From Kangiella sp. (GTDB lineage: Bacteria; Pseudomonadota; Gammaproteobacteria; Enterobacterales; Kangiellaceae): a stretch of 64,000 nt of DNA. The notes beneath the pieces are model-generated. The model did no database searches and had not been told where the DNA came from. It worked only from the letters and a program-made list of their open reading frames with translations. Shown in pieces: positions 4,541 through 56,739 of the stretch. Within the stretch, counting starts at the first letter, position 1. The number at the start of each line of letters is the position of its first letter. Location of the stretch: contig JANQSG010000018.1 of NCBI GenBank assembly GCA_028284185.1, positions 303,642 through 367,641 on the forward strand, in the 5' to 3' direction. The position numbers were made by a program, and so were the translations under genes.

Positions 4541-6478
4541 ATGTATAAGAAGCAAGCGATTAAAGATTATGGGCGTGAAATTTCGATATTTTACGCCCGC
4601 TCGGTGATTGCTTTAATTATTGTTGTACTTTTGTTGTTCCTACTTTTATTTCGCCAGTTTAAATTACAGGTTTTAAACTACGAATCCTATCAAACTCAAT
4701 CGGAAAATAATCGGATCCAGGTAAGACCAGTGGCCCCTATTCGAGGTTTGATTTTTGATCGTAATGGAGAGTTGCTTGCTGAAAATCGGTCAATATTTGC
4801 TTTGGAAATTACTCCCGAGCAGATTGGGCGTAAAAAAATGGACGATACTTTATTGCGTTTGAGCCAACTGCTGGATATCGATCAAAAGCAAATTGATGAG
4901 TTTAAAGAGCAAATCAAGTTTCGTTCCAAATATAAATCCTATCCTATTAAAAGTAAGCTCACTGAAGAACAGGTAGCGTTATTTTCTGTTAATCGTCATT
5001 TATTTCCCGGGGTCAGCGTGGAAGCACGGCTGGAGCGTTATTATCCGCATGGTGAAGATTTAGTACACGCTATTGGGCGTATGGCTGCGATCAATAAACA
5101 GGATTTAGAGAAAATGCAGCAAGAGGCTGAAGACACCCAGGATTTCTCTAAGCTCAACAATTATGCCGCCACAAATAAAATAGGTAAGTTAGGGCTTGAG
5201 CGTTATTATGAGCAGCAGTTGCACGGCACGGTGGGCCAGGAAAAAGTTGAAACTGACGTTAGAGGCAGGATCGTAAGAGTTTTAACTCGACAGGATCCGG
5301 ATGCAGGTAAAAATTTGCACTTGTATCTGGATTATAAGTTGCAACAAAAAGCCAATCAAATATTAAAAGAGGCAGGTGCTCGTGGCGCTGTGGTTGCTGT
5401 GGACCCCTCTAATGGTGGTGTTTTGGCTATGGTCAGCCAGCCGTCGTACGATCCTAATCTGTTTATTGGAGGTATCTCACAAGCGGATTATTCAGCATTA
5501 ATTAATTCTGAAGATAGACCTTTATACAACCGAGCGGTGCAAGGCACCTATGCTCCTGCGTCAACCATAAAGCCCCATCTGGCTTGGCTTGGCTTACAAC
5601 AAGGTGTGATTACCGAGTCTACCCGGATTGCCGACCCCGGATGGTTTTCGCTACCGAATAACAAACATCGTTACCGAGACTGGAAGCCTTGGGGACATGG
5701 TGCCAGCATGAATGTATTTGATGCAATTGTTGAGTCCTGCGATACCTATTTTTATGATTTATCGGTACGTCTAGGCATTAACACCATTGCAGAAGGCATG
5801 CGTCAGTTTGGTTTTGGCGAAAAAACCGGCTTGGATATTGTTGAAGAAAAACAGGGCATTATGCCTTCACGCGACTGGAAAAAAGTGGTTAGAAAAGAGC
5901 CCTGGTATATGGGAGATACGGTCAATATTGGTATTGGTCAAGGCTTTTGGACGGCAACACCATTGCAGCTAGCCAATGCCAGTGCGGTATTAGCGAACGA
6001 TGGTATCCGCTATAAATTGCAATTGGTTAAAGGATTTTCTGAGAATGATGTAGTGGAAGCCATTATTCCGGAGATGGCTCATGAACAAATAGTTACTGGT
6101 GATGGTCGCTGGCTGGATTTAGTTAAGTCATCGATGTACCAAGTCACCCAACCACCTAAAGGTACGGCCAAGAGCGCTTTTGCTGATGCTTCATTTACTG
6201 CTGCTGGAAAAACCGGCACCGGACAAGTCAAAAGTATTGCTCAAGACGAAACTTATGATGCAGAAAATGTTGAAGACAAGTTTAAGGATAACGCCTTATT
6301 TATTGGTTATGCCCCTTATGAAAAGCCGCAGATTGCGATTGCTGTAGTGATGGAAAATGCTGGTGGTGGAGGTGGTAATGCTGCGCCAATAGCGCGTGAG
6401 TTGATGGAATTTTATTTGACCACTAATAATTTTATTCAGTCACAACAAGTCGCTGAACATCAGCCGGAGGCTAACTGA
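4541..6478 (+). CDS. mrdA: Penicillin-binding protein 2 (elongation transpeptidase)
   Basis: Class B PBP that crosslinks peptidoglycan during side-wall elongation together with RodA. It has one N-terminal membrane segment (about residues 22-41), the dimerisation domain with RGLIFDRNGELLAEN, and a transpeptidase domain with active-site STIK (Ser341), a downstream SCD motif and KTGTG (Lys557). ATG 4541 is chosen over the adjacent TTG at 4538. The stop overlaps the rodA start in TGATG, indicating translational coupling. The 645-residue length is normal. Confidence 0.97.
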   Translation: MYKKQAIKDYGREISIFYARSVIALIIVVLLLFLLLFRQFKLQVLNYESYQTQSENNRIQVRPVAPIRGLIFDRNGELLAENRSIFALEITPEQIGRKKMDDTLLRLSQLLDIDQKQIDEFKEQIKFRSKYKSYPIKSKLTEEQVALFSVNRHLFPGVSVEARLERYYPHGEDLVHAIGRMAAINKQDLEKMQQEAEDTQDFSKLNNYAATNKIGKLGLERYYEQQLHGTVGQEKVETDVRGRIVRVLTRQDPDAGKNLHLYLDYKLQQKANQILKEAGARGAVVAVDPSNGGVLAMVSQPSYDPNLFIGGISQADYSALINSEDRPLYNRAVQGTYAPASTIKPHLAWLGLQQGVITESTRIADPGWFSLPNNKHRYRDWKPWGHGASMNVFDAIVESCDTYFYDLSVRLGINTIAEGMRQFGFGEKTGLDIVEEKQGIMPSRDWKKVVRKEPWYMGDTVNIGIGQGFWTATPLQLANASAVLANDGIRYKLQLVKGFSENDVVEAIIPEMAHEQIVTGDGRWLDLVKSSMYQVTQPPKGTAKSAFADASFTAAGKTGTGQVKSIAQDETYDAENVEDKFKDNALFIGYAPYEKPQIAIAVVMENAGGGGGNAAPIARELMEFYLTTNNFIQSQQVAEHQPEAN

Positions 6479-7611
6479 TGTTCAAGCCATTGAGTCAACA
6501 GCCGACCAGTAACACCCATAAGGCTAGTCAGAGTATTTTGTGGCGACTACATCTTGATGCGCCATTGTTGCTAGGGCTTTTAATGCTAATGGGTTTTGGT
6601 TTACTGGTGATTTATAGTGCTGGTGGTGAAAACTTAGGATTGGTAAAACGTCAGCTGGTCAGGTTGGGTTTTGGTCTTGGCGTGATGTTTGTGATTGCGC
6701 AAATTCCGCCAAGAATTTTAAAGATGTGGGCGCCACTACTCTATATCGGAGCCATTGGTTTTTTATTAGCGGTGTTGCTGTTTGGTGAGTCCAGCAAAGG
6801 TGCACAGCGCTGGATCAATATCGGTATTCGCTTTCAACCTTCAGAAATAATGAAATTGGCTATGCCATTGATGGTTGCCTGGTATTTCGCTGAGAAGCCA
6901 CTGCCGCCTAACTTTAAGCAATTAATGATGGGGTTAATTCTGGTAGTGGCACCGACGATGATGATTATGTTGCAACCGGATTTAGGCACTTCGTTACTGA
7001 TTGCTTCATCAGGCCTATTCGTTATTTTCTTTGCCGGGATTCGCTGGCGTTATATAGCTTCGGCAGTGATAGCGATTTTGATTCTCGCGCCGATTATGTG
7101 GTTTTTTGTCATGCATGATTATCAAAAAGGACGGGTGCTGACTTTTTTGAATCCTGAGCGCGATCCACTGGGTGCGGGTTATCATATTATTCAATCGCAA
7201 ATTGCCATTGGCTCTGGAGGAGCTACGGGTAAAGGCTGGCTCAAAGGTACTCAATCACAATTGGAATTTTTGCCGGAACGGCATACCGACTTTATTTTTG
7301 CGGTATTGGGCGAAGAGTTTGGTTTGCTTGGTGTGGCTATCTTATTGACTCTGTATTTGTTTGTTATTATTCGGGGTTTGCAAATCAGTTTGCAAGCACA
7401 GGATACTTTTAGCCGGTTGTTAGGCGCCGCCATAACCTTAATATTTTTTGTTTATTTATTTGTAAATATCGGCATGGTTAGTGGTTTATTGCCTGTGGTC
7501 GGTTTACCATTGCCTTTAATCAGTTATGGCGGCACTTCAATGGTGACCTTGTTGGCAGGTTTTGGTATTTTAATGGCTATCAAAACCCATCGCCGTTTGC
7601 ACTCACGTTAA
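6478..7611 (+). CDS. rodA: Rod-shape SEDS glycosyltransferase RodA
   Basis: Integral-membrane peptidoglycan polymerase, partner of PBP2. The 377-residue protein has about ten hydrophobic segments and the SEDS signatures: the loop with FAVLGEEFGLLG and the C-terminal block LPLPLISYGGTS. Its ATG overlaps the mrdA stop by one base. Presence of both proteins in a rod-type cassette with mltB, rlpA and dacA suggests a rod-shaped cell. Confidence 0.97.
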   Translation: MFKPLSQQPTSNTHKASQSILWRLHLDAPLLLGLLMLMGFGLLVIYSAGGENLGLVKRQLVRLGFGLGVMFVIAQIPPRILKMWAPLLYIGAIGFLLAVLLFGESSKGAQRWINIGIRFQPSEIMKLAMPLMVAWYFAEKPLPPNFKQLMMGLILVVAPTMMIMLQPDLGTSLLIASSGLFVIFFAGIRWRYIASAVIAILILAPIMWFFVMHDYQKGRVLTFLNPERDPLGAGYHIIQSQIAIGSGGATGKGWLKGTQSQLEFLPERHTDFIFAVLGEEFGLLGVAILLTLYLFVIIRGLQISLQAQDTFSRLLGAAITLIFFVYLFVNIGMVSGLLPVVGLPLPLISYGGTSMVTLLAGFGILMAIKTHRRLHSR

Positions 7612-7645
7612 TTGTTTTATTGATAATGAATTTAAGGAAATACTA

Positions 7646-8686
7646 GTGGTTAAAACAATCGTTTCTTTTTTAGTAGCGTCAAGTTTGATGGCAAGTCCTG
7701 TTTTTGCCGAAAAAAAGGCACCCACTAACGCCAAAGATTTTGCTGTTTATATGGCCAAAAAGCATGGTTTTACTCAGGATTATGTGGCCCAAGCTTTAGA
7801 AAAAGCCGAAAAACGTCAAAGTATTCTGGATGCCATGAGTCGTCCGGCAGAAGGTAAAGACTGGTATCAGTATCGTCCAATTTTTATGACAGAAAAGCGC
7901 ATCAAACAAGGTGCCGATTTTTGGAAAAAATATCAAGCTACCTTAGCAAAAGCGGAACAAAAATTTCAGGTTCCGGCAGAAGTGATCGTTGCTATTATCG
8001 GGGTGGAAACTTTTTATGGCAAGATACAAGGTTCCTATCCTGTGATTGAAGCTATCAGTACTCTGGCTTTTCATTATCCAAAACGCGCCAAGTTTTTTGC
8101 CAGTGAGCTAGAGCAGTATTTTATTCTTGCCCGTGAACAAGTTTGGTCTTTGGATAAGCCACTAGGTTCTTATGCTGGCGCTATGGGCATGGGACAATTT
8201 ATTCCTAGTTCGTATCGTCATTATGCGGTAGATTTTGATGGTGATAAAGCAATTGACTTATTTGATAATCCGGTTGATGCCATTGGTAGTGTGGCTAATT
8301 ATTTCCATAAACATAAATGGATCTTAGGCGAGCCTGTTGCCGAGTTTTTGCCCAAGCTAAAACTACAGCATGCAAAACAGTTTCATAATGATCAGTTAAA
8401 GCCTAAATTTTCTACGAGGCAGTTAAAAGCTGCAGGGGTTAAATTTGATAGTCGCATCACCCAGGACAATAAAGCAGGTATTTATCATTTCAAGCAAAAA
8501 AACTCAGTAGATCACTGGATTGGCTTTCATAACTTTTATGTCATCACGCGCTATAATCGTAGTCCCATGTATGCTATGGCGGTGCATCAGCTGAGTCAGG
8601 AAATTAAAAAAGAGTATCAGGCATTAACTCAGGGAAAAGCCCAGAAAAAAGTTCAAAAAACAGTGACTAAAGAGGTGACTGAGTGA
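7646..8686 (+). CDS. mltB: Membrane-bound lytic murein transglycosylase B
   Basis: Cleaves the MurNAc-GlcNAc bond in peptidoglycan to give 1,6-anhydro products. The 346-residue SltB3-type protein has a signal peptide with probable cleavage after residue 21 (VFA) and the catalytic glutamate in GVETFYG (Glu121), followed by the family block GSYAGAMGMGQFIPSSYR. The start is GTG at 7646 with AAGGAAA upstream. There is no lipobox cysteine, so despite the family name it looks periplasmic rather than lipid-anchored. Its stop overlaps the rlpA start. Confidence 0.94.
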   Translation: MVKTIVSFLVASSLMASPVFAEKKAPTNAKDFAVYMAKKHGFTQDYVAQALEKAEKRQSILDAMSRPAEGKDWYQYRPIFMTEKRIKQGADFWKKYQATLAKAEQKFQVPAEVIVAIIGVETFYGKIQGSYPVIEAISTLAFHYPKRAKFFASELEQYFILAREQVWSLDKPLGSYAGAMGMGQFIPSSYRHYAVDFDGDKAIDLFDNPVDAIGSVANYFHKHKWILGEPVAEFLPKLKLQHAKQFHNDQLKPKFSTRQLKAAGVKFDSRITQDNKAGIYHFKQKNSVDHWIGFHNFYVITRYNRSPMYAMAVHQLSQEIKKEYQALTQGKAQKKVQKTVTKEVTE

Positions 8687-34418: not shown

Positions 34419-35687
34419 ATGAGTTTACAAGTATTTCTATCAGAACAAGAAGCCGATAATGTATGGCAAGGCAACTTAGTTAGTTATGGTCAAAGCCAGG
34501 CGACCATTCACAGTCTCGATCCTGAGTCGATACAAATGGCTGCTCGCAAACTGGTAACTAATGGTGTTTCTGATTTTGAATTACAAGGCGATTGGTCCCT
34601 GGAAAATCAGTGGGCCTTCTTTCAGGGTTCTTATGATCCAAAAATTGATGTGCAGCTTGAGTATGCCGAGTTAGCGGATGATGAGGCTCGCGAGTTGGAT
34701 GCGCGGGTGCAAGTCAGTCGCTGGATCCGCTCGATGGTTAATGAAACACCAGAGATTTTGGCGCCACAAGTATTAGCCCAGGAAGCTGCTGATTTTATTC
34801 AAAGCTTAGCACCAGAGAATGTTTCCTACGAGATTGTAGCTGGTGAAGATTTGGAAAAAGCAGGTTATATCGGCACCTGGGAAGTTGGGCGCGGCAGTAC
34901 CAGGCCACCAGCAATTTTGAAATTGGTGTTTAACCCTACAGAAGAGCCTAATCCTGTACCAGCAGCAGCTTTGGTAGGCAAGGGTATTACCTTTGATAGT
35001 GGTGGTTATAGTATTAAACCCAGCGCTGGCATGTTGAATATGAAAGCGGATATGGGCGGCGCAGCAACTATTGCTGGCGCTTTAGGTTTGGCTATCTTGC
35101 GAGGTTTGGATAAACCAGTGCACTTGTATCTATGTTGTGCTGAGAACCTGATTAGTGGTCATGCTTATAAGTTAGGAGATATTTTAACCTACCCTAATGG
35201 GGTAACGGTTGAAATTAAAAATACTGATGCTGAAGGTCGAGTGGTATTAGCCGATGGTTTATTATTGGCTTCGGAGTCGGGTGCGCCGACAATTATTGAT
35301 GCTGCTACTTTAACTGGTGCCGCGGTTACCGCTCTTGGTGAAGATTATAATGCAGTATTTGCGTTAGATGATATGGCACGTAGTGAGTATTTAGGGATGA
35401 CCCAACTGGAAAATGAACGCCATTGGCCATTACCATTAGAGCTATTTCATGCCAATAAATGTGCTTCCAGTTTTGCCGACACGGCTAACAGTCGTCCGGT
35501 AAAAGGTGGTGGTCCAGGTGGTGCCTCTAATGCCGCAGGTTTCCTGTCCCGTTTTGTGCGCGATGAAGGTAAAGGTTGGTTGCATATTGATCTTGCAGCT
35601 GCCTATAACGAAAGTGCCAGTAGCAAATGGTCAGCAGGTGGTACGGGCATTGGTTTTAGAAGTATTGCCCGTTTGCTTTTAGATTAG
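34419..35687 (+). CDS. pepB: M17 leucyl aminopeptidase (PepB-like)
   Basis: Cytosolic dimetal aminopeptidase. The 422-residue protein has the M17 core GKGITFDSGGYSIKPS, MKADMGGAA, NTDAEGRVVLADGL and a metal-binding Asp/Glu set in those motifs. Length and the short N-terminal domain match PepB (427) rather than PepA (503). ATG 34419 is chosen over TTG 34416 because AAGGAA at 34408-34413 is well spaced. Its stop overlaps the convergent GNAT gene by four bases. Confidence 0.93.
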   Translation: MSLQVFLSEQEADNVWQGNLVSYGQSQATIHSLDPESIQMAARKLVTNGVSDFELQGDWSLENQWAFFQGSYDPKIDVQLEYAELADDEARELDARVQVSRWIRSMVNETPEILAPQVLAQEAADFIQSLAPENVSYEIVAGEDLEKAGYIGTWEVGRGSTRPPAILKLVFNPTEEPNPVPAAALVGKGITFDSGGYSIKPSAGMLNMKADMGGAATIAGALGLAILRGLDKPVHLYLCCAENLISGHAYKLGDILTYPNGVTVEIKNTDAEGRVVLADGLLLASESGAPTIIDAATLTGAAVTALGEDYNAVFALDDMARSEYLGMTQLENERHWPLPLELFHANKCASSFADTANSRPVKGGGPGGASNAAGFLSRFVRDEGKGWLHIDLAAAYNESASSKWSAGGTGIGFRSIARLLLD

Positions 35688-36229
35688 TCTAAATAAGTGC
35701 ACTCTTCTTTTAGCAGAGTATAAAGGGGAGTGTCGTGATATTTGCCATTAAGAAATTGATTTTGCCTTAGTGTTGCTTCACGGATATAGCCAGACTTCTC
35801 CATAATTCTAATAGAAGCTTTATTTTCTAGGAATGGAGGCCCCCAAAGTTTATTATATCCAAGCTCTTCGAAAGCGAATTGACTGAGCCGGGTTAAAGCT
35901 TCTGTTCCGTATCCTTTTCCATGAAATACAGGTAAGAAAACCATGCCCACTTCCGCTTGCTTGCTTAAATGATTTCGGGTGATAAGTCCACATACACCAA
36001 TGGCTTGGCCTGATTCTTTTTCTGAAATAACTAAGTTCAAAAAATGTTTAGAGCTGATATTCCACGGTTTTAATTGGGCTTCAAAAAGTTTCTCTGCATA
36101 ATCATCGGATAGCGGTTTCGCTATAAACTGCATTACTTTAGGGTTTGTGTATAAGCCCACGTAAAGTTGTTTATCGGATAGAGTGATTGGTCTAAAATTA
36201 AGGTGTAAGCTGCTAAAGTTGAAGTTCAT
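35684..36229 (-). CDS. GNAT family N-acetyltransferase (RimJ/RimL-like)
   Basis: Acetyl-CoA-dependent acetyltransferase of 181 residues. The family block GMVFLPVFHGKGYGTEAL contains the acetyl-CoA-binding R/Q-x-x-G-x-G/A equivalent (HGKGYG), followed by N-x-ASIRIMEKSGY at the C-terminus. Overlaps the pepB stop and is divergent from the borosin methyltransferase gene, so it is unlikely to be part of that operon. Acceptor substrate unknown. Confidence 0.9.
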   Translation of the reverse strand: MNFNFSSLHLNFRPITLSDKQLYVGLYTNPKVMQFIAKPLSDDYAEKLFEAQLKPWNISSKHFLNLVISEKESGQAIGVCGLITRNHLSKQAEVGMVFLPVFHGKGYGTEALTRLSQFAFEELGYNKLWGPPFLENKASIRIMEKSGYIREATLRQNQFLNGKYHDTPLYTLLKEECTYLD

Positions 36230-36315: not shown

Positions 36316-37104
36316 ATGGCAACTGATAATCACAAAGGTAGTTTGGTTTGCGTGGGAACTGGCATGAAGCTGGGCGCGCACATTAGTCCAATTTCAAGAA
36401 GTTATATTGAAAATGCTGATGTAGTTTTTATGGGGGTTTCTTCTGGCTTAGTCGAGCTTTGGATTCAAGAAATGAATGGTGATGTCCGAAGCCTACAACC
36501 TTATTATCAAGAAGGGAAATCCAGGCTGAAAACCTATAAAGAAATGGTTAAAGTAATGCTTGATGAAGTTCGTAAAGGCAAAAAGGTTTGCGGTGCTTTT
36601 TATGGTCATCCCGGGGTATTTGCCTGGGCTCCGCATAAGGCTATTGAGCAAGCCAAAGCTGAAGGTTTTAAGGCACATATGGAGCCGGGAATATCGGCAG
36701 AGGACTGTTTGTATGCAGATTTAGGCATTGATCCTGGCACCTATGGTTGTCAACATTACGAAGCGACGCAGTTTTTATTGTACAAAAAAAGAATAGAATC
36801 GACAGCTTACCTTATATTATGGCAAATTGGTTTGACTGGAGATCTGGACTTAACGCAAAATAATGCCAAAAAGGATTATCTTGAAGTCTTGTTGGACTTG
36901 TTAGTAAAAGACTATAGACCAGAGCATGAAGTAATTATTTATTCTGCATCATTAACCGCATTAAATAATTTCAGTGAGAGAAAAGTCCCACTTATGTCGC
37001 TGCCTAATGAAAAATTGAGTATGAATGATACCCTAGTAATTCCCCCAGCAAAGAAGATGCTGAGAAATGAGTTATTTGTAACAAAGTTAAATGAAATCGT
37101 TTAA
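36316..37104 (+). CDS. Split-borosin peptide backbone alpha-N-methyltransferase
   Basis: 262-residue SAM-dependent methyltransferase of the tetrapyrrole-methylase fold whose sequence follows the catalytic domain of the fungal borosin enzyme OphMA: GSLVCVGTGMKLG, YYQEGKSRLKTY, EVRKGKKVCGAFYGHPGVF, PGISAEDCLYADLGIDP and YEATQFL. Residues Tyr64, Arg70, Tyr74 and Tyr96 align with OphMA Tyr66, Arg72, Tyr76 and Tyr98, the active-site set. Unlike OphMA it has no C-terminal substrate extension; the substrate appears to be the next gene. It has a weak ribosome site, against a strong one for the precursor. Not a cobalamin or siroheme enzyme: no such genes are near and the peptide-methylating motifs are specific. 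Confidence 0.9.
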   Translation: MATDNHKGSLVCVGTGMKLGAHISPISRSYIENADVVFMGVSSGLVELWIQEMNGDVRSLQPYYQEGKSRLKTYKEMVKVMLDEVRKGKKVCGAFYGHPGVFAWAPHKAIEQAKAEGFKAHMEPGISAEDCLYADLGIDPGTYGCQHYEATQFLLYKKRIESTAYLILWQIGLTGDLDLTQNNAKKDYLEVLLDLLVKDYRPEHEVIIYSASLTALNNFSERKVPLMSLPNEKLSMNDTLVIPPAKKMLRNELFVTKLNEIV

Positions 37105-37110
37105 ACTACC

Positions 37111-37116
37111 AAGGAG
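37111..37116 (+). promoter_or_regulatory. Strong ribosome binding site of the precursor gene
   Basis: AAGGAG ends six bases before ATG 37123 and is near-consensus. The methyltransferase ATG (36316) has no comparable site, which would favour excess precursor over enzyme. Confidence 0.8.
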
Positions 37117-37122
37117 TACAAT

Positions 37123-37431
37123 ATGTCAAAAGTAATAGAATTAATTGAGAAGCTAGGTCAAGATTCAACTCTTGAAGTTAGTGAAGCCTCATTAAAAGAA
37201 ATGTCGGAAGTTTTCGAGTTAAGTAGTGAAGAAGAGCAGGCTCTAATTTTGGGTTCTGATGAGCTTGAAAAAATAATGCAAACTAACCCTAATATCATGG
37301 CAGTATTTTTTCCTGCGGAAGATGATGATTCAGAGGGTGATGATTCAGAGGGTGATGATTCAGAGGGTGATGATTCAGATGAACAAGGAGAGAATGAAGA
37401 ATCAAAACTACAGTATTTGCATATAGCTTAA
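37123..37431 (+). CDS. Borosin precursor peptide with acidic repeat
   Basis: 102-residue acidic protein 18 bases after the methyltransferase. Residues 1-55 form a helical region resembling the borosin-binding domain of OphMA and of SonA: LIEKLGQDS, then LSSEEEQALILGSDELEKI. It is followed by a short hydrophobic stretch IMAVFFPA (58-65), in the place where the core peptide begins in bacterial split borosins, then three exact copies and one partial copy of DDSEG, and a hydrophobic C-terminus KLQYLHIA. Either hydrophobic stretch may be the methylated core; the first is favoured by position. No signal peptide. Confidence 0.8.
   Translation: MSKVIELIEKLGQDSTLEVSEASLKEMSEVFELSSEEEQALILGSDELEKIMQTNPNIMAVFFPAEDDDSEGDDSEGDDSEGDDSDEQGENEESKLQYLHIA
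37324..37380 (+). repeat. 15-bp tandem repeat in the precursor gene
   Basis: GATGATTCAGAGGGT occurs as three exact consecutive copies (37324-37338, 37339-37353, 37354-37368) plus a fourth truncated copy to 37380. The unit length keeps frame, encoding DDSEG. Perfect DNA identity implies recent or ongoing copy-number change. Confidence 0.97.
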
Positions 37432-37444
37432 GAGAGTAAATTTT

Positions 37445-39175
37445 GTGAAAAAATATTCTTTATTCATTTTAGTTCTACTGAGTTTATCGCTATCTAGTTC
37501 TTTACTAGGTAGCGATTCAGTATCGAAACAACTAAAAAGAGCTGACTCGATTCGGAGCTCTGATACTAAAGAGTTTTGGATAATCATAAATGAATTAAAG
37601 AATAAAGAATTAGGATCCAAATATAATAAAGATTTTTTATTATATTTAGAGGGATATGGGCTAGGTTTTTCTGGCCACTTTGATAAGGCAATAAAAATTC
37701 TAGAAGGCTTAAATGACGAGTCCGTAGATAAGACACTGCGATATAGAGCTGGGATTTCAATTGTGAACTCTCTAATAGTTCCTAAAAAATACACAGAGGC
37801 ATTAGAGGCCTTAGAAAACACTTTAGTGCTATCAGAAGAAATTGATGATACAGACATCAGAAATGGTGGCTATATAATGGCAGCTATTACCTATAATCAA
37901 GTGGGGCAATACGAACTTGGTTTATATTTTTCTGATAAGTTACTGTCAGAAGGTGTCGTAGGTAGAGAGAAGTGTTTTTCAGGACAGTTGAAATTAGAGG
38001 CCCTACATAAATTAAAAAAAAGCTTGGACGACACTCCGTTGGCAGACGAGATTATTAAGCATTGTATTGACTTAAATGAGTTTGTAGTTGTTGGGTTTAT
38101 TCGAACGTACTTAGCAAAGCAACTACTTGAAAATGGACAGTATGATCAAAGTAAATTACTATTAGAGCAGACCTTAGAGTTGGCAAAAAATAGTCGTTAT
38201 CCTCGTTTGATTTCAGAATACTATTCACTTTTAGCAGTAACCTACTGGAATTTAAATGAGCTAGATTTGGCTCGGCAGTTTGCAAGTCAAGCATTAGCTT
38301 TAGACCAAACATCTAGGTATGCAGATCCAGCAATACAAGCAAATAGGGTTCTATATCAAGTCAATAAAAGTGAGGGAAATTATTCTGAAGCTTTGGAGTT
38401 CCATGAAGAATTTTTAAGTGCACATAAAGCCAGTATGGATGATCTTGCGACAAAGCAGTTAGCTTTTCAAGTTGTGAAGCAGCAAACTTTAGAGAAAAAC
38501 AAACAAATACAGTTGCTTAATAAGCAAAACGAAGTCTTAAAACTTGAACAGGACCTCGCAAAAAAAGAAGCTGCTAATAATCGTTTGATTGTTTTATTAT
38601 TGGTCTTCATTTTAGCTTCTGGAGCTTTTTGGTCCTATCGCGTTAAACGTAATCAGGTTAAATTAAAGCACCAATCAGAAACTGATCTTTTAACAGGAGT
38701 TTGCTCTCGGCACCATTTTTATTCTTTATCTCGTCAGAATCTGGAGTATGCAAGTAATAATAACCAGGAAGTCAGTTTTATCTTATTTGATATGGATAAC
38801 TTTAAATCGGTGAATGATAGTTATGGCCACTTAGTTGGGGACTGGGTACTTAAGAAGGCAATTGAAGCTAGTCGTCCTTGTTGGCGTCAGAATGATATTG
38901 CAGGTCGTTTGGGTGGTGAAGAATTTGCCATTATGTTGCCTGCTTGCAGTTTAAACAAAGCAACTGAGATTGCTGAAAATTGTCGGAAGGCCATTCAGTC
39001 AATTGATACCACAGAATCAGGCCATAAATTTAGTATTTCGGCTAGTTTTGGTATTACTAACAGCAAAGTATCAGGTTATCAATTGCGTGATTTAATCGCT
39101 GATGCCGACAGAATCATGTACCAAGCCAAAGCTGCTGGTAAAAACCAAACACTGAAAGTGACCCAAAAAGGTTAG
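37445..39175 (+). CDS. Membrane diguanylate cyclase with extracytoplasmic TPR-like sensor
   Basis: 576 residues: signal peptide (residues 1-22), a long helical-repeat domain with TPR-like pairs (about 60-345, e.g. GQYDQSKLLLEQTLELAK, LDLARQFASQALAL), a coiled-coil, one membrane segment (379-397) and a cytoplasmic GGDEF domain with GGEEF (490-494) and an inhibitory I-site RQND (481-484) five residues before it. It should synthesise c-di-GMP with product inhibition, controlled from the periplasm. Start is GTG 37445, 13 bases after the precursor stop, so it is probably in the borosin operon. The N-terminal part is AT-rich like the borosin genes. Confidence 0.9.
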   Translation: MKKYSLFILVLLSLSLSSSLLGSDSVSKQLKRADSIRSSDTKEFWIIINELKNKELGSKYNKDFLLYLEGYGLGFSGHFDKAIKILEGLNDESVDKTLRYRAGISIVNSLIVPKKYTEALEALENTLVLSEEIDDTDIRNGGYIMAAITYNQVGQYELGLYFSDKLLSEGVVGREKCFSGQLKLEALHKLKKSLDDTPLADEIIKHCIDLNEFVVVGFIRTYLAKQLLENGQYDQSKLLLEQTLELAKNSRYPRLISEYYSLLAVTYWNLNELDLARQFASQALALDQTSRYADPAIQANRVLYQVNKSEGNYSEALEFHEEFLSAHKASMDDLATKQLAFQVVKQQTLEKNKQIQLLNKQNEVLKLEQDLAKKEAANNRLIVLLLVFILASGAFWSYRVKRNQVKLKHQSETDLLTGVCSRHHFYSLSRQNLEYASNNNQEVSFILFDMDNFKSVNDSYGHLVGDWVLKKAIEASRPCWRQNDIAGRLGGEEFAIMLPACSLNKATEIAENCRKAIQSIDTTESGHKFSISASFGITNSKVSGYQLRDLIADADRIMYQAKAAGKNQTLKVTQKG

Positions 39176-39294: not shown

Positions 39295-41565
39295 ATGGCT
39301 GCAAAATCATCAAGAAAATCAACTGGAAAAGTAAAATCAGGCTTTTGGCTAAAAGTCCGTAAGGGGGTTTTCAGGCTTGTAATTTTGGGTTTGGCGTTTC
39401 TTTTTTTGTTGGTTATTTATTCTGATTCCCAGATAACAAAACAGTTTGAAGGAAAGCGTTGGCAATTGCCGGCAAAAGTTTATGCACAACCACTGGTATT
39501 GGCGGAGGGTAAGGCTCTAACACCGACACGGTTAAGGCAAGAACTTCAGCTGTTGGGTTATCGAAAGACGGTTAAAGCCAACCGTGCTGGTGACTATGAA
39601 AATTATGGTGACTATTTTTATATCTATATTCGTCCTTTCCAATTTTGGGATGAATCTGTAGCTGCGCAAGAGATAGCGTTTCGTTTAACTAATGGCAAGG
39701 TTGCAGAGTTAAAAGATCATGTCAATGGTGAGCCATTACAGTTAGCACGACTTGATCCTTTGCTAATTGGACAAATTTATCCGAATCATCAGGAAGATCG
39801 TTTGCTAGTAAAGTTAGAAGATTTGCCTGAGCATTTACAGCAAGCTTTGCTGGTAACTGAAGATAAAGACTTTTATCAGCATCATGGCATTTCTTTAAAA
39901 GGAATTGCACGTGCGGTTTGGTACAACATTAATAATGATGGTCGTGCTCACGGCGGTAGCACTATCACCCAACAATTAGTAAAAAATTACTTTTTAACCC
40001 GGGAAAGGAGTCTTTGGCGAAAATTTCGTGAAGCTATTATGGCCATAACTTTGGAGGCGCGCTATGAAAAGGATGAGATTTTACAAGCCTATTTTAATGA
40101 GGTTTTTTTAGGTCAAGAGGGTAATAGGGCCATTCATGGGGTCGGGCTTGCCAGTCAATATTATTTTGATAAGAATGTTCAAGATCTAACGGCCGCTCAA
40201 TCAGCTTTATTGGTTGCTATTTTAAAAGGCCCAGCAGCTTTTGATCCCTATCGCAAACCTGAAAATGCTATGAAACGGCGTAATCTGGTGTTGAAACTAA
40301 TGATGGATAAAGGGGTTTTAACTGAGGCTGAATATCAAAATCAACTAGCAACTACTTTGGCGGTAGTTAAGAAACCTAAAATACGGCTATCCAAAGTGCC
40401 TGCTTTTATGGATTTGGTAAAGCGCCAGTTAAAACAAAATTACTCAGAGGAAGAATTAAATTCAGAAGGCCTCAGAATTTTTACTACACTGGATCCAGTG
40501 GCGCAGCGTTACATGGAAAAACGTTTAAGCCAGGCCATCAGAAAAGTCGAACAAAGCCATCAGATAGAAGCTGATACTTTACAAACAGCGGTGATTATCA
40601 CGGAAGCTAAAAGTGGAAAAATTCTGGCTTTGGCGGGCGATAGAAAGGAAGGTTATTCGGGTTTCAATCGAGCGCTGGACGCTAAGCGGCAGATTGGTTC
40701 TGTGATTAAGCCTTTTGTCTTAGCAGCGAGCCTCGAAAAATCATCAAGAATAAAACTGAACAAACAGATCTTGGATACTCCAATGGACCTGAAACAACGT
40801 GATGGCAGCCATTGGCGACCCAAAAATTATGATGGTAAGTTTCATGGACAAGTAACCTTGTTTGAAGCCTTAAGTAAATCCTACAACATTCCAATGGTTA
40901 AGCTGGGTCAAGAAATTGGTAATGAATATATTGCAGGTTTTATTGAAGCTATGGGTGTGGATAAGGTTCGAGCACTGGACGCTTTACCATTAGGTGTTTT
41001 GGAATTATCACCATTGGAATTAGCCGAACTGTATCAAGTTTTAGCCAGTGGAGGTTTGAAAATTAAACCATCAGCGATTGAAGCGGTTACCGACAATCAA
41101 GGTGGTTTATTAGAGCGTTACCCGATTAATGCACAGAGGGTTATGTCAGATAGTTATAATTACTTAGTCAAAGCCAATATGCTGGATGTGGTGGAGACAG
41201 GAACGGCAAAGAAACTAAAGCAGCGAATTCCCTGGACCAAGTTTGCTGGTAAAACAGGAACTACCAATAACTTAAAAGATTCTTGGTTTGCTGGTTTTAG
41301 TAATGAACACTTGGGCGTGGTTTGGGTCGGGCGTGATGATAATAAAGCGGCCAGAATTAGTGGTTCAACCGCTGCGCTACCGGTCTTTATTGATATCTTT
41401 GAAGGAGTTAATACCGAGTCATTAAAACTGGGCTATCACCCTGAAATCGAATGGCGTTTGATTGATCTAGATTCGGGCAAGTTAGCTAGTGATGGTTGTC
41501 AAAGAACCGCTAGTATGCCTTTTACTTACCAAACGGCACCGAAAGAATATGCAGTTTGTAATTAA
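39295..41565 (+). CDS. mrcB: Bifunctional penicillin-binding protein 1B
   Basis: Class A PBP that polymerises and crosslinks peptidoglycan. The 756-residue protein has a short basic cytoplasmic tail, a membrane segment (about 28-46), a UB2H-like domain (about 70-160, the LpoB-binding module of PBP1B), a GT51 domain with VTEDKDFYQHHGIS and GGSTITQQLVKN, and a transpeptidase domain with active Ser469 in GSVIKPF, SKSYN and KTGTTN. UB2H distinguishes it from PBP1A. No lpoB-like gene is adjacent. Confidence 0.96.
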   Translation: MAAKSSRKSTGKVKSGFWLKVRKGVFRLVILGLAFLFLLVIYSDSQITKQFEGKRWQLPAKVYAQPLVLAEGKALTPTRLRQELQLLGYRKTVKANRAGDYENYGDYFYIYIRPFQFWDESVAAQEIAFRLTNGKVAELKDHVNGEPLQLARLDPLLIGQIYPNHQEDRLLVKLEDLPEHLQQALLVTEDKDFYQHHGISLKGIARAVWYNINNDGRAHGGSTITQQLVKNYFLTRERSLWRKFREAIMAITLEARYEKDEILQAYFNEVFLGQEGNRAIHGVGLASQYYFDKNVQDLTAAQSALLVAILKGPAAFDPYRKPENAMKRRNLVLKLMMDKGVLTEAEYQNQLATTLAVVKKPKIRLSKVPAFMDLVKRQLKQNYSEEELNSEGLRIFTTLDPVAQRYMEKRLSQAIRKVEQSHQIEADTLQTAVIITEAKSGKILALAGDRKEGYSGFNRALDAKRQIGSVIKPFVLAASLEKSSRIKLNKQILDTPMDLKQRDGSHWRPKNYDGKFHGQVTLFEALSKSYNIPMVKLGQEIGNEYIAGFIEAMGVDKVRALDALPLGVLELSPLELAELYQVLASGGLKIKPSAIEAVTDNQGGLLERYPINAQRVMSDSYNYLVKANMLDVVETGTAKKLKQRIPWTKFAGKTGTTNNLKDSWFAGFSNEHLGVVWVGRDDNKAARISGSTAALPVFIDIFEGVNTESLKLGYHPEIEWRLIDLDSGKLASDGCQRTASMPFTYQTAPKEYAVCN

Positions 41566-54969: not shown

Positions 54970-56739
54970 TTATGCTAAATAATTGACTTGGTTACGACCA
55001 TTCTTTTTGGATTGGTACAGTGCTTTATCAGCACGTTTGAATAAAGATTCAAATGTATCGTCGGATTGTGAGCTACTGATACCAAAGCTACAGGAAATAT
55101 TGCTTATGGTATCGAAAGTATAATTATAAATGAGTGCTCGTAATTTTTCGGCCAGGATTTTTGCTGGTCCTGAAGTTGTGGAAGGGCAAAGAATGGCAAA
55201 TTCCTCTCCGCCCCAACGAGCCAGAACATCAGTTTTACGAATATTTTCGCTGACCAATTTGGCTAATTTTTGTAAAACATAATCACCAGTTAAATGACCA
55301 TAGTTATCATTGACTCTTTTGAAATGATCTACATCAAGCAATATTAGCGATAATTGTTCATTGTATGCAGTATGATATTGATAAGCATTTTCTAAATACT
55401 CACGATTAAAGATGCCCGTGAGCTTATCTTTATGAATTTTAGTTTCCAATAAACTGGTTTTGTTTTCCAGTTGCTTTTTATTATTAAAGCTATAAAACAA
55501 TAACAATAAAGATGATAAAAGATAAAATAAATAAGGTAGAAAATCAGGAAACCATAATTTGTTATATTCAGGTTCTTTTGGTTTAGGTAAAGGCTCTATT
55601 GCAACATTGAGTTTATTAAAGATGCTGGTTGCCGAATAGGTATTGTAAATATCACCGCCATACTCGCCCGGACTGCTTTGATTGAATTGAACGTATTGGA
55701 TAATGGAATTTTTATCCAGTTGATTGTGCATATCAAGCTTAATAAACATCCAGACTAATAAATGTGTTGCCTTCATAGATGGATGATTTGAATTAATTTT
55801 TCGAGAATATACGTTGGTTGTTGTTTGAAACTTTTGTTTGATCGTATTGCTCAGAGCCGTTAGGTTAAGATGATTACTAACAAAGTGTGCTTTGTCAGTG
55901 TTGGTTCCATTTTTAAGATACCAAAGTGATATAAAGGCACGAAAAATATTATAGCTATCATTGGCTTTTTTACCGCTTTGAGCACTATAGCTTTGTGTCT
56001 CAGGATCCCAGGCAGAACTTATATAGCTGATAACTTTATTAATAAACTCTTCAGAAAACTGTTTATTGGTATGTTCATAGATAGTTCCTAAAGCTCGCAT
56101 AGCAAAGGAAGTACATTTTAAACAAGAATTTCGTCCATATTCAGGGTAGTGTAAATCCCAAAAACCACCGTCTTTATTTTGATGGCTGATAATAAAATTT
56201 TTAATAGCAGTTAAATCAATGCTTTCTGAATCCAGAGCCGATAAGCTTTTTAAGCTTAAAACTGCATCCATAGTTGGGCGAATCCCCAAAGTATCGCCAC
56301 TTTCTGTAGCAAAACCCGCAACTTTGTTGCCATTCTCATCGTGAGTTTCTTGATAGTGGCTTAATATAAAGTCCCGAGCGGTTGATTTGTTTATAGTATT
56401 CAAACCATTTAACTCTGCTAATGTGGATAGCGCATAGCGAGTGGCTCTTAGACTATTAGCATTAAGTTGAGAGGGTTCATTGATGAGATCGGGGTTGATA
56501 ACAAAGTAACCATTAGTATTTTGACGTCTGGCTAGCCAAGCAATGGTTTTATCAGGCTCATAATAGATATTATTGATTTTATGCTTGGTCAGTGCAGTTT
56601 GGTATTGGCTGCTGAGCTTTTGGTTCTTTGATTGAGTGTTTTCACTATAAATATGCAAGCCTATACCTGCCACTAAAGCTATAATGGCTAGTGTCATATA
56701 GTAAGTAAAAGCTTGATTTTTATAAGAATTTTCGATCAA
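54970..56739 (-). CDS. Membrane diguanylate cyclase with alpha/alpha-toroid-like sensor
   Basis: 589 residues: TM1 (about 12-31), a large periplasmic domain (about 60-390), TM2 (about 396-417) and a cytoplasmic GGDEF domain with GGEEF (510-514) and I-site RKTD (501-504). The periplasmic domain has repeated motifs QNTNGYF (73-79) and HQNKDGGFWD (186-195) and paired helices, as in terpenoid-cyclase/prenyltransferase toroids. A toroid fused to GGDEF is unusual. It is a single gene between the SDR gene and hemL. Confidence 0.85.
   Translation of the reverse strand: MIENSYKNQAFTYYMTLAIIALVAGIGLHIYSENTQSKNQKLSSQYQTALTKHKINNIYYEPDKTIAWLARRQNTNGYFVINPDLINEPSQLNANSLRATRYALSTLAELNGLNTINKSTARDFILSHYQETHDENGNKVAGFATESGDTLGIRPTMDAVLSLKSLSALDSESIDLTAIKNFIISHQNKDGGFWDLHYPEYGRNSCLKCTSFAMRALGTIYEHTNKQFSEEFINKVISYISSAWDPETQSYSAQSGKKANDSYNIFRAFISLWYLKNGTNTDKAHFVSNHLNLTALSNTIKQKFQTTTNVYSRKINSNHPSMKATHLLVWMFIKLDMHNQLDKNSIIQYVQFNQSSPGEYGGDIYNTYSATSIFNKLNVAIEPLPKPKEPEYNKLWFPDFLPYLFYLLSSLLLLFYSFNNKKQLENKTSLLETKIHKDKLTGIFNREYLENAYQYHTAYNEQLSLILLDVDHFKRVNDNYGHLTGDYVLQKLAKLVSENIRKTDVLARWGGEEFAILCPSTTSGPAKILAEKLRALIYNYTFDTISNISCSFGISSSQSDDTFESLFKRADKALYQSKKNGRNQVNYLA

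Follow-up and report, generated by a model that had tools for sequence, protein, structure and literature searches.

What are the peptides of bacterial split borosins for? These systems are widespread (PMC11285071, in the text available), and according to the available part of PMC8429565, no bacterial split borosin had been tied to a final natural product by 2021. The locus that we describe lies in a 64,000-nucleotide stretch of DNA (the window, by which we mean the whole stretch that was analysed) from a 2.5 Mb host genome. Three genes on the + strand, separated by gaps of 18 and 13 bases, encode a methyltransferase, a 102-amino-acid protein, and a protein with a tetratricopeptide (TPR) part and a GGDEF domain. 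They are flanked by a divergent GNAT gene and by a penicillin-binding-protein-like gene that begins at 39295 (named by eye). Promoter and terminator scans of the locus gave nothing above shuffled sequences. The parts are:

35684..36229, - strand: GNAT acetyltransferase (Pfam Acetyltransf_3), divergent from the methyltransferase in the window
36316..37104, + strand: SonM-type alpha-N-methyltransferase, 262 amino acids, without a C-terminal clasp/core
37111..37116, + strand: Shine-Dalgarno-like AAGGAG ahead of the precursor, by direct reading
37123..37431, + strand: borosin precursor, 102 amino acids, with a leader (1-56) that resembles the borosin binding domain (BBD), a hydrophobic stretch from 57, and an acidic tail
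37291..37329, + strand: candidate core, NIMAVFFPAEDDD, from an alignment of 35 precursors
37323..37379, + strand: 15-bp tandem repeat of TGATGATTCAGAGGG in 3.8 perfect copies that encode the DSEGD tail (a perfect repeat was sought in the window's copy only)
37445..39175, + strand: candidate receptor, 576 amino acids, with a signal-like hydrophobic segment at the N terminus (6-22), a TPR region, a membrane span (381-397), and a GGDEF domain with GGEEF and RxxD

We lean slightly toward the view that this is a SonM-type (type IV) split borosin that comes with its own receptor: the N-methylated peptide would be a signal that is sensed by the periplasmic TPR domain of the adjoining protein. The observations behind this view are homology, gene order, co-occurrence, the swapping of output domains, and the co-variation of precursors with TPR domains. 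From gene order and co-variation we infer that signal and receptor belong together; methylation, processing, export, binding and signalling are predicted parts of the scheme.

The methyltransferase is closest to SonM, from the type IV split borosin SonM-SonA of Shewanella oneidensis (PMC8429565, available part). When we compared the window's enzyme to the PDB with phmmer, six SonM sequences matched at E = 4e-71 to 2e-70, OphMA, dbOphMA and MroMA matched at E = 2e-49 to 5e-45, and precorrin methylases matched at just E = 0.1-0.2. An earlier note, made from the sequence alone, had claimed that the catalytic domain follows OphMA and that the substrate part is missing. Both claims agree with what we found: Tyr64, Arg70, Tyr74 and Tyr96 do not vary in any row of two alignments, one of 21 rows and one of 55 (the latter built from natural read-through stretches of enzyme and precursor), and the protein ends before OphMA's clasp/core. 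The first three of these residues align to Tyr58, Arg67 and Tyr71 of SonM (phmmer alignment). The note had also asked how the enzyme groups, and it falls with SonM and OphMA, apart from the cobalamin/siroheme methylases. In a tree, it lies inside a supported clade of 36 enzymes, with SonM outside (100/98). The nearest relative (L115, 6667-7425) is 68% identical and, at 252 amino acids, ten shorter. In the read-through model, the leader was well predicted and the blocks that hold the core had pLDDT of 71 and 61; few rows of the fold comparison reach the precursor part, which gives that list no bearing on the precursor's fold, and OphMA alignments that extend into the leader have rmsd of 13-14.

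Homologous enzymes are present in 38 of 40 genomes from the window's family, the host included (E = 1e-20), and in 4 of 273 other genomes drawn from the class (profile search, E = 1e-25). At locus L216 (2440-5964), a borosin-like methyltransferase domain lies within an open frame of 1174 amino acids, and we found no TPR gene nearby.

As a single sequence, the precursor had no relative in the PDB above chance. A profile of 35 precursors (including the window's) gave SonA as the top 7 of 14 rows, with a best E value of 1.5e-4 across residues 1-56. The matched region of SonA is termed the borosin binding domain in the available part of PMC8429565. Behind the leader come a hydrophobic stretch from residue 57, a proline, and an acidic stretch. 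Pro64 is nearly invariant (at least 90% of the 35 rows), and in relatives too the acidic stretch stands behind it. A leader HMM, built from 43 seeds that were pre-picked on the methyltransferase strand but searched against both strands, found 132 precursor reading frames in loci L005-L114, and all 132 share the strand of their nearest methyltransferase, so it is very unlikely that the precursor is a chance reading frame.

These results bear out most of what the earlier note said of the precursor, including the binding-domain-like region and the hydrophobic stretch at the core position. Its contrast of a weak ribosome binding site for the enzyme and a strong one for the precursor also fits: none is evident before the enzyme, and AAGGAG precedes the precursor. 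It had wondered if the precursor is kept beside homologous enzymes, and a precursor lies within 1.2 kb of 92 of 98 enzyme genes. The acidic tail, which it had singled out as distinctive, turned out to be common among precursors of the window's clade. The note's split borosin of two genes holds for the enzyme and the precursor, but it overlooked two neighbours, the sensor gene that starts 13 bases behind the precursor and the acetyltransferase gene ahead of the enzyme.

An unfused borosin-family methyltransferase with the conserved Tyr/Arg/Tyr/Tyr, next to a separate precursor with a BBD, is among the features that characterize a type IV split borosin. Judging from these sequence comparisons, the locus is very probably a split borosin, and methylation by the logic of SonM is predicted and likely.

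Precursors at other loci vary. In Rhodanobacteraceae loci, including L036, L054, L048 and L067, the cores have Cys-Cys or a single Cys ahead of the Pro-acidic motif. A set of Dyella cores resembles PQxTQxPGHEEDE and has no hydrophobic stretch. At L166 (2895-8229), one methyltransferase has a precursor on either side, and behind each precursor stands a separate TPR histidine kinase; the second of these precursors matches Pfam LigA above its cut-off.

What is the third gene? Its GGDEF domain (Pfam, E = 7e-41) has GGEEF and RxxD intact, as a diguanylate cyclase should. Ahead of the membrane span, the only cysteines are Cys177 and Cys207, and both are conserved. Among the 100 sensors that are paired with a precursor (see below), a hydrophobic segment is present at the N terminus of 89, and a membrane span precedes the cyclase in every one. 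The hydrophobic segment and the span, together with the conserved cysteine pair, suggest that the TPR part lies outside the cytoplasm; its placement in the periplasm is a prediction from hydropathy and the two cysteines.

The sensor gene is a nearly constant companion of the enzyme and the precursor. We considered 98 enzyme genes with at least 2.5 kb of downstream sequence (leaving out 8 of 106, and not using the short-flank loci L005-L034); the loci were chosen by likeness to the window's enzyme, plus the window itself, and one set is the 80 kept of 571. A precursor lies within 1.2 kb of 92 of these genes, as noted above, and a TPR-GGDEF gene lies within 2 kb of 91. Conversely, 100 of 109 TPR-GGDEF genes follow a precursor, whose end lies -200 to 700 nt ahead of them (0-29 nt in 67 cases). 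GGEEF is present in all 100 of these paired sensors and RxxD in 93. Because the sensor regularly accompanies precursor genes across related bacteria, we consider the gene at 37445-39175 to be a strong candidate for the receptor.

Within the host genome, we found 15 GGDEF places, of which two are of the TPR type, and both adjoin a borosin enzyme. A search for the TPR part in eight of the remaining 13 gave no match. Another GGDEF gene in the window (54970-56739, - strand) has an N-terminal region that looks different by eye, and it is absent from the list of the sensor-profile search. The host's other borosin locus (L123, 5572-8360, on contig C11) has a SonA-like precursor (8142-8360), a TPR-GGDEF gene (6400-8133) and a methyltransferase (5572-6375), all on the - strand. 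The host also encodes a lone TPR protein with a signal segment (L221, 3872-4954, on contig C25), between a gene that we take to be gcvP-like and a conserved neighbour gene. At the same site, the congeners L151 and L156 have a precursor, a methyltransferase and a TPR gene, so the lone protein reads as a candidate orphan receptor, left or gained alone.

The association extends across precursor types in the window's family. A TPR sensor lies within 3 kb and on the same strand for 59 of 61 enzyme genes with several types of precursor. By output, 33 of these 59 sensors have GGDEF, 11 have a histidine kinase, and 15 have no output domain. Pfam confirmed the histidine kinase output for 12 proteins at 11 loci, with just the ATPase domain matched at L161. 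The two enzyme genes without such a sensor are L131 (3740-4537) and L168, where the contig ends 750 bases downstream. Three of the 33 GGDEF cases are at the tandem loci L116, L117 and L134, where the sensor nearest to the second enzyme is 2.6 kb away, past another enzyme. Near four distant enzymes that were sampled from the class (L143-L146), we found no TPR sensor.

As a broader sample, we searched 398 genomes drawn from across the phylum, using SonM as the query, and found the enzyme in 15. Among 16 enzyme places outside the host genome, 15 have an adjoining TPR sensor (12 GGDEF, 3 kinase); the sensor of L209 is divergent, and L216 has none. The three closest relatives of SonM (66-77% identity) have the order enzyme, SonA-like precursor, TPR-GGDEF. 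Looking from the other side, a sensor profile matched 12 of the 398 genomes at E ≤ 1e-50, and the enzyme is in 11 of these 12 vs. 4 of the 386 others (P = 2e-17, Fisher exact test). At E = 1e-15, the sensor is in 14 of 15 genomes with the enzyme vs. 7 of 383 others. This co-occurrence and the 59 of 61 above depend in part on selection, because the HMMs for kinase and TPR-only sensors were trained on proteins that were first chosen beside an enzyme (and then confirmed with Pfam), and because the sensor profile includes rows from genomes in the phylum sample (G662, G517 and G648).

We had also considered whether the TPR gene is a trait of loci with acidic tails (19 of 19 vs. 2 of 11 others). That contrast used the window's TPR part as the single query, with 1.5-kb flanks, and was a false negative: wider regions and Pfam show TPR genes at the other loci too.

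Nine loci (fewer than nine independent cases, because near-identical precursors in L036 and L060 and in L052 and L095, and sister enzymes in L036 and L054, recur) contain two pairs of precursor and sensor next to methyltransferase genes that the pairs share (two such genes at L082). Within these loci, divergence is 30-66% between the TPR domains and 5-38% between the cyclase domains, and in each locus the cyclases differ less. The differences between precursors follow those of their own TPR domain in 9 of 9 loci (mean r = 0.69, measured against all other precursors), while the relation to their own GGDEF domain is weaker (mean 0.25, positive in 8 of 9). To us, the two-pair loci look like a module in which the sensor and the peptide diverge jointly and the output stays common. 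TPR distances track the leader more closely than the core (partial correlation 0.79 vs. 0.28), so joint inheritance of adjacent genes may be all that the co-variation reflects. We looked for core-specific co-divergence with the TPR domain and did not find it; the short core is difficult to align.

Some sensors occur away from the enzyme. L219 and L221 have sensors and no methyltransferase in the stretch that was fetched. L220 (3527-5594, in genome G514) has a precursor and TPR-GGDEF pair, and the 9.5 kb fetched contain no methyltransferase; the enzyme of G514 is about 87 kb away on the same contig.

The scheme that we propose would work as follows. The methyltransferase would bind the precursor, a separate protein, by its helical leader and N-methylate backbone amides in the hydrophobic stretch (roughly residues 57-63, by homology to SonM and SonA). 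The modified peptide would be trimmed, perhaps by a pepsin-like protease of the kind found in related cassettes or by the host's unlinked copy, might be acetylated by the GNAT, and would arrive in the periplasm. There the TPR domain of the adjoining membrane protein would sense it and switch the cytoplasmic diguanylate cyclase, so that the peptide would set the level of c-di-GMP. Sensors of this kind at related loci have a histidine kinase instead, or lack an output domain.

Some further genes recur near the enzymes. A GNAT gene is near 50 of the 98 enzymes and, where present, usually adjoins the enzyme and shares its strand. The best matches of the window's GNAT are diamine/spermidine acetyltransferases, with a weak match to MccE (E = 6e-4). 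A pepsin-like aspartic protease lies ahead of the GNAT or the enzyme in 11 of 159 loci (two confirmed with Pfam). The cassettes with a protease are:

L170, 2643-7470: a compact series of protease, GNAT, enzyme, precursor and sensor genes
L065, L068, L103, L125, L126, L128, L129, L131, L132 and L208

The host's one pepsin-like protease is unlinked (L224, 3128-4498, on contig C7) and is similar to a cassette protease (phmmer, E = 4.5e-109). Pfam Asp is found in 3 of 15 genomes with the enzyme vs. 5 of 383 others (P = 0.002, Fisher exact test), and in none of 14 control genomes. These proteases are candidates for processing the peptide. No exporter was obvious by eye among the 23 gene clusters that are common to at least 6 of 119 loci. 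Upstream aminopeptidase-like and ribA-like genes (named by eye; 11 of 119 loci) look like local synteny at the genus level, so we did not count them toward the pathway.

Could the genes be explained in another way? The enzyme might be an ordinary tetrapyrrole methylase that happens to lie beside a chance acidic reading frame, and Pfam does assign it to TP_methylase. Sequence and fold comparison put SonM and OphMA far nearer than the cobalamin/siroheme methylases, and the 132 same-strand precursor frames and the match of the precursor profile to SonA (E = 1.5e-4) also contradict this, so we give it practically no weight. A more serious concern is that the product of a genuine split borosin acts elsewhere (in metal handling, antibiosis, or otherwise) and that the TPR-cyclase is a co-located regulator of production that senses another cue. 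After all, adjacency alone indicates functional linkage, not binding, and the TPR domain co-varies more with the leader than with the core. But a shared regulator would need neither a separate sensor behind each precursor of a two-precursor locus, with TPR parts that vary more than the cyclases, nor a precursor and sensor pair far from the genome's enzyme, as at L220. Both count against a shared regulator, and we consider it unlikely.

The precursor, modified or not, might instead be a small intracellular protein that regulates the methyltransferase or the cyclase, with no secreted peptide. This would suit the lack of an obvious recurring exporter (in the 23 clusters from 119 loci), the co-variation of the entire leader with the TPR domain, and the window's precursor, which by eye has no visible signal peptide. 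It does not suit a sensor with an N-terminal hydrophobic segment (89 of 100), a membrane span (100 of 100) and a conserved cysteine pair in its TPR part, and it seems quite improbable. Acetyltransferases can confer self-resistance, as MccE does, so one could also imagine an antimicrobial or toxic peptide, with the GNAT for self-resistance and the TPR protein as a sensor for immunity or stress. The GNAT genes near 50 of 98 enzymes and the weak match to MccE are in keeping with that. However, in about half of the cases no GNAT was found near the enzyme, the best matches are to diamine/spermidine acetyltransferases, and cyclase or kinase outputs would be odd for immunity. We view a toxic peptide as very improbable.

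Returning to a peptide signal with its own receptor, we propose more tentatively, and at a little less than even confidence, that SonM-type split borosins as a class are N-methylated peptide signals with dedicated periplasmic TPR receptors, whose output can be swapped between c-di-GMP synthesis and phosphorelay. The GGDEF neighbour is not wholly new to the literature, because a figure legend on borosin architectures, in the available part of PMC11395268, names a "GGDEF-sequence-containing domain". This was the only mention of borosin with GGDEF in the partial texts that we searched. Within the limited literature covered, no paper tied borosins to cyclic di-GMP or tetratricopeptides, and in one of the papers that mention borosins together with GNAT or acetyltransferase, the GNAT, in the text available, belongs to another class of RiPP.

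A dedicated sensor beside nearly all of the sampled SonM-type enzymes makes the function of split borosins directly testable. If the class reading is true, it gives bacterial borosins a function, and N-methylation, which is credited with improving membrane permeability, would have a role in the peptide signalling of proteobacteria.

How does this system compare to known ones? Like SonM-SonA, it has a separate enzyme and precursor; the enzyme is 47-49% identical to SonM with the same active-site residues, the leader is homologous to SonA's BBD with a hydrophobic stretch behind it, and the closest relatives of SonM also carry a TPR-GGDEF gene behind a SonA-like precursor. Unlike SonM-SonA, the window's precursor is longer and has an acidic repeat tail, a GNAT gene lies upstream, and the enzyme's clade of 36 excludes SonM. 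In contrast to OphMA and other fused borosins of fungi, the system is bacterial, without a fused clasp/core, and its precursor has its own gene.

In RRNPP receptors (Rap, PlcR and their kin), a TPR sensor is paired with a small peptide gene, as in the window's locus. The TPR profile matches many general TPR proteins, RapF and RapJ included (E = 2e-8 to 5e-6). RRNPP proteins are defined as cytoplasmic TPR regulators with an HTH or phosphatase part, whereas the window's sensor has an N-terminal hydrophobic segment, a membrane span and a GGDEF output, which places it outside that family. It is also predicted to be periplasmic and membrane-bound, with GGDEF or histidine kinase outputs among its relatives, it is proteobacterial, and its peptide is predicted to be N-methylated. 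We propose that the two share the same logic and belong to different families; by that analogy, and with the same less-than-even confidence as for the class as a whole, SonM-type split borosins would be a Gram-negative counterpart of TPR-based peptide pheromone systems.
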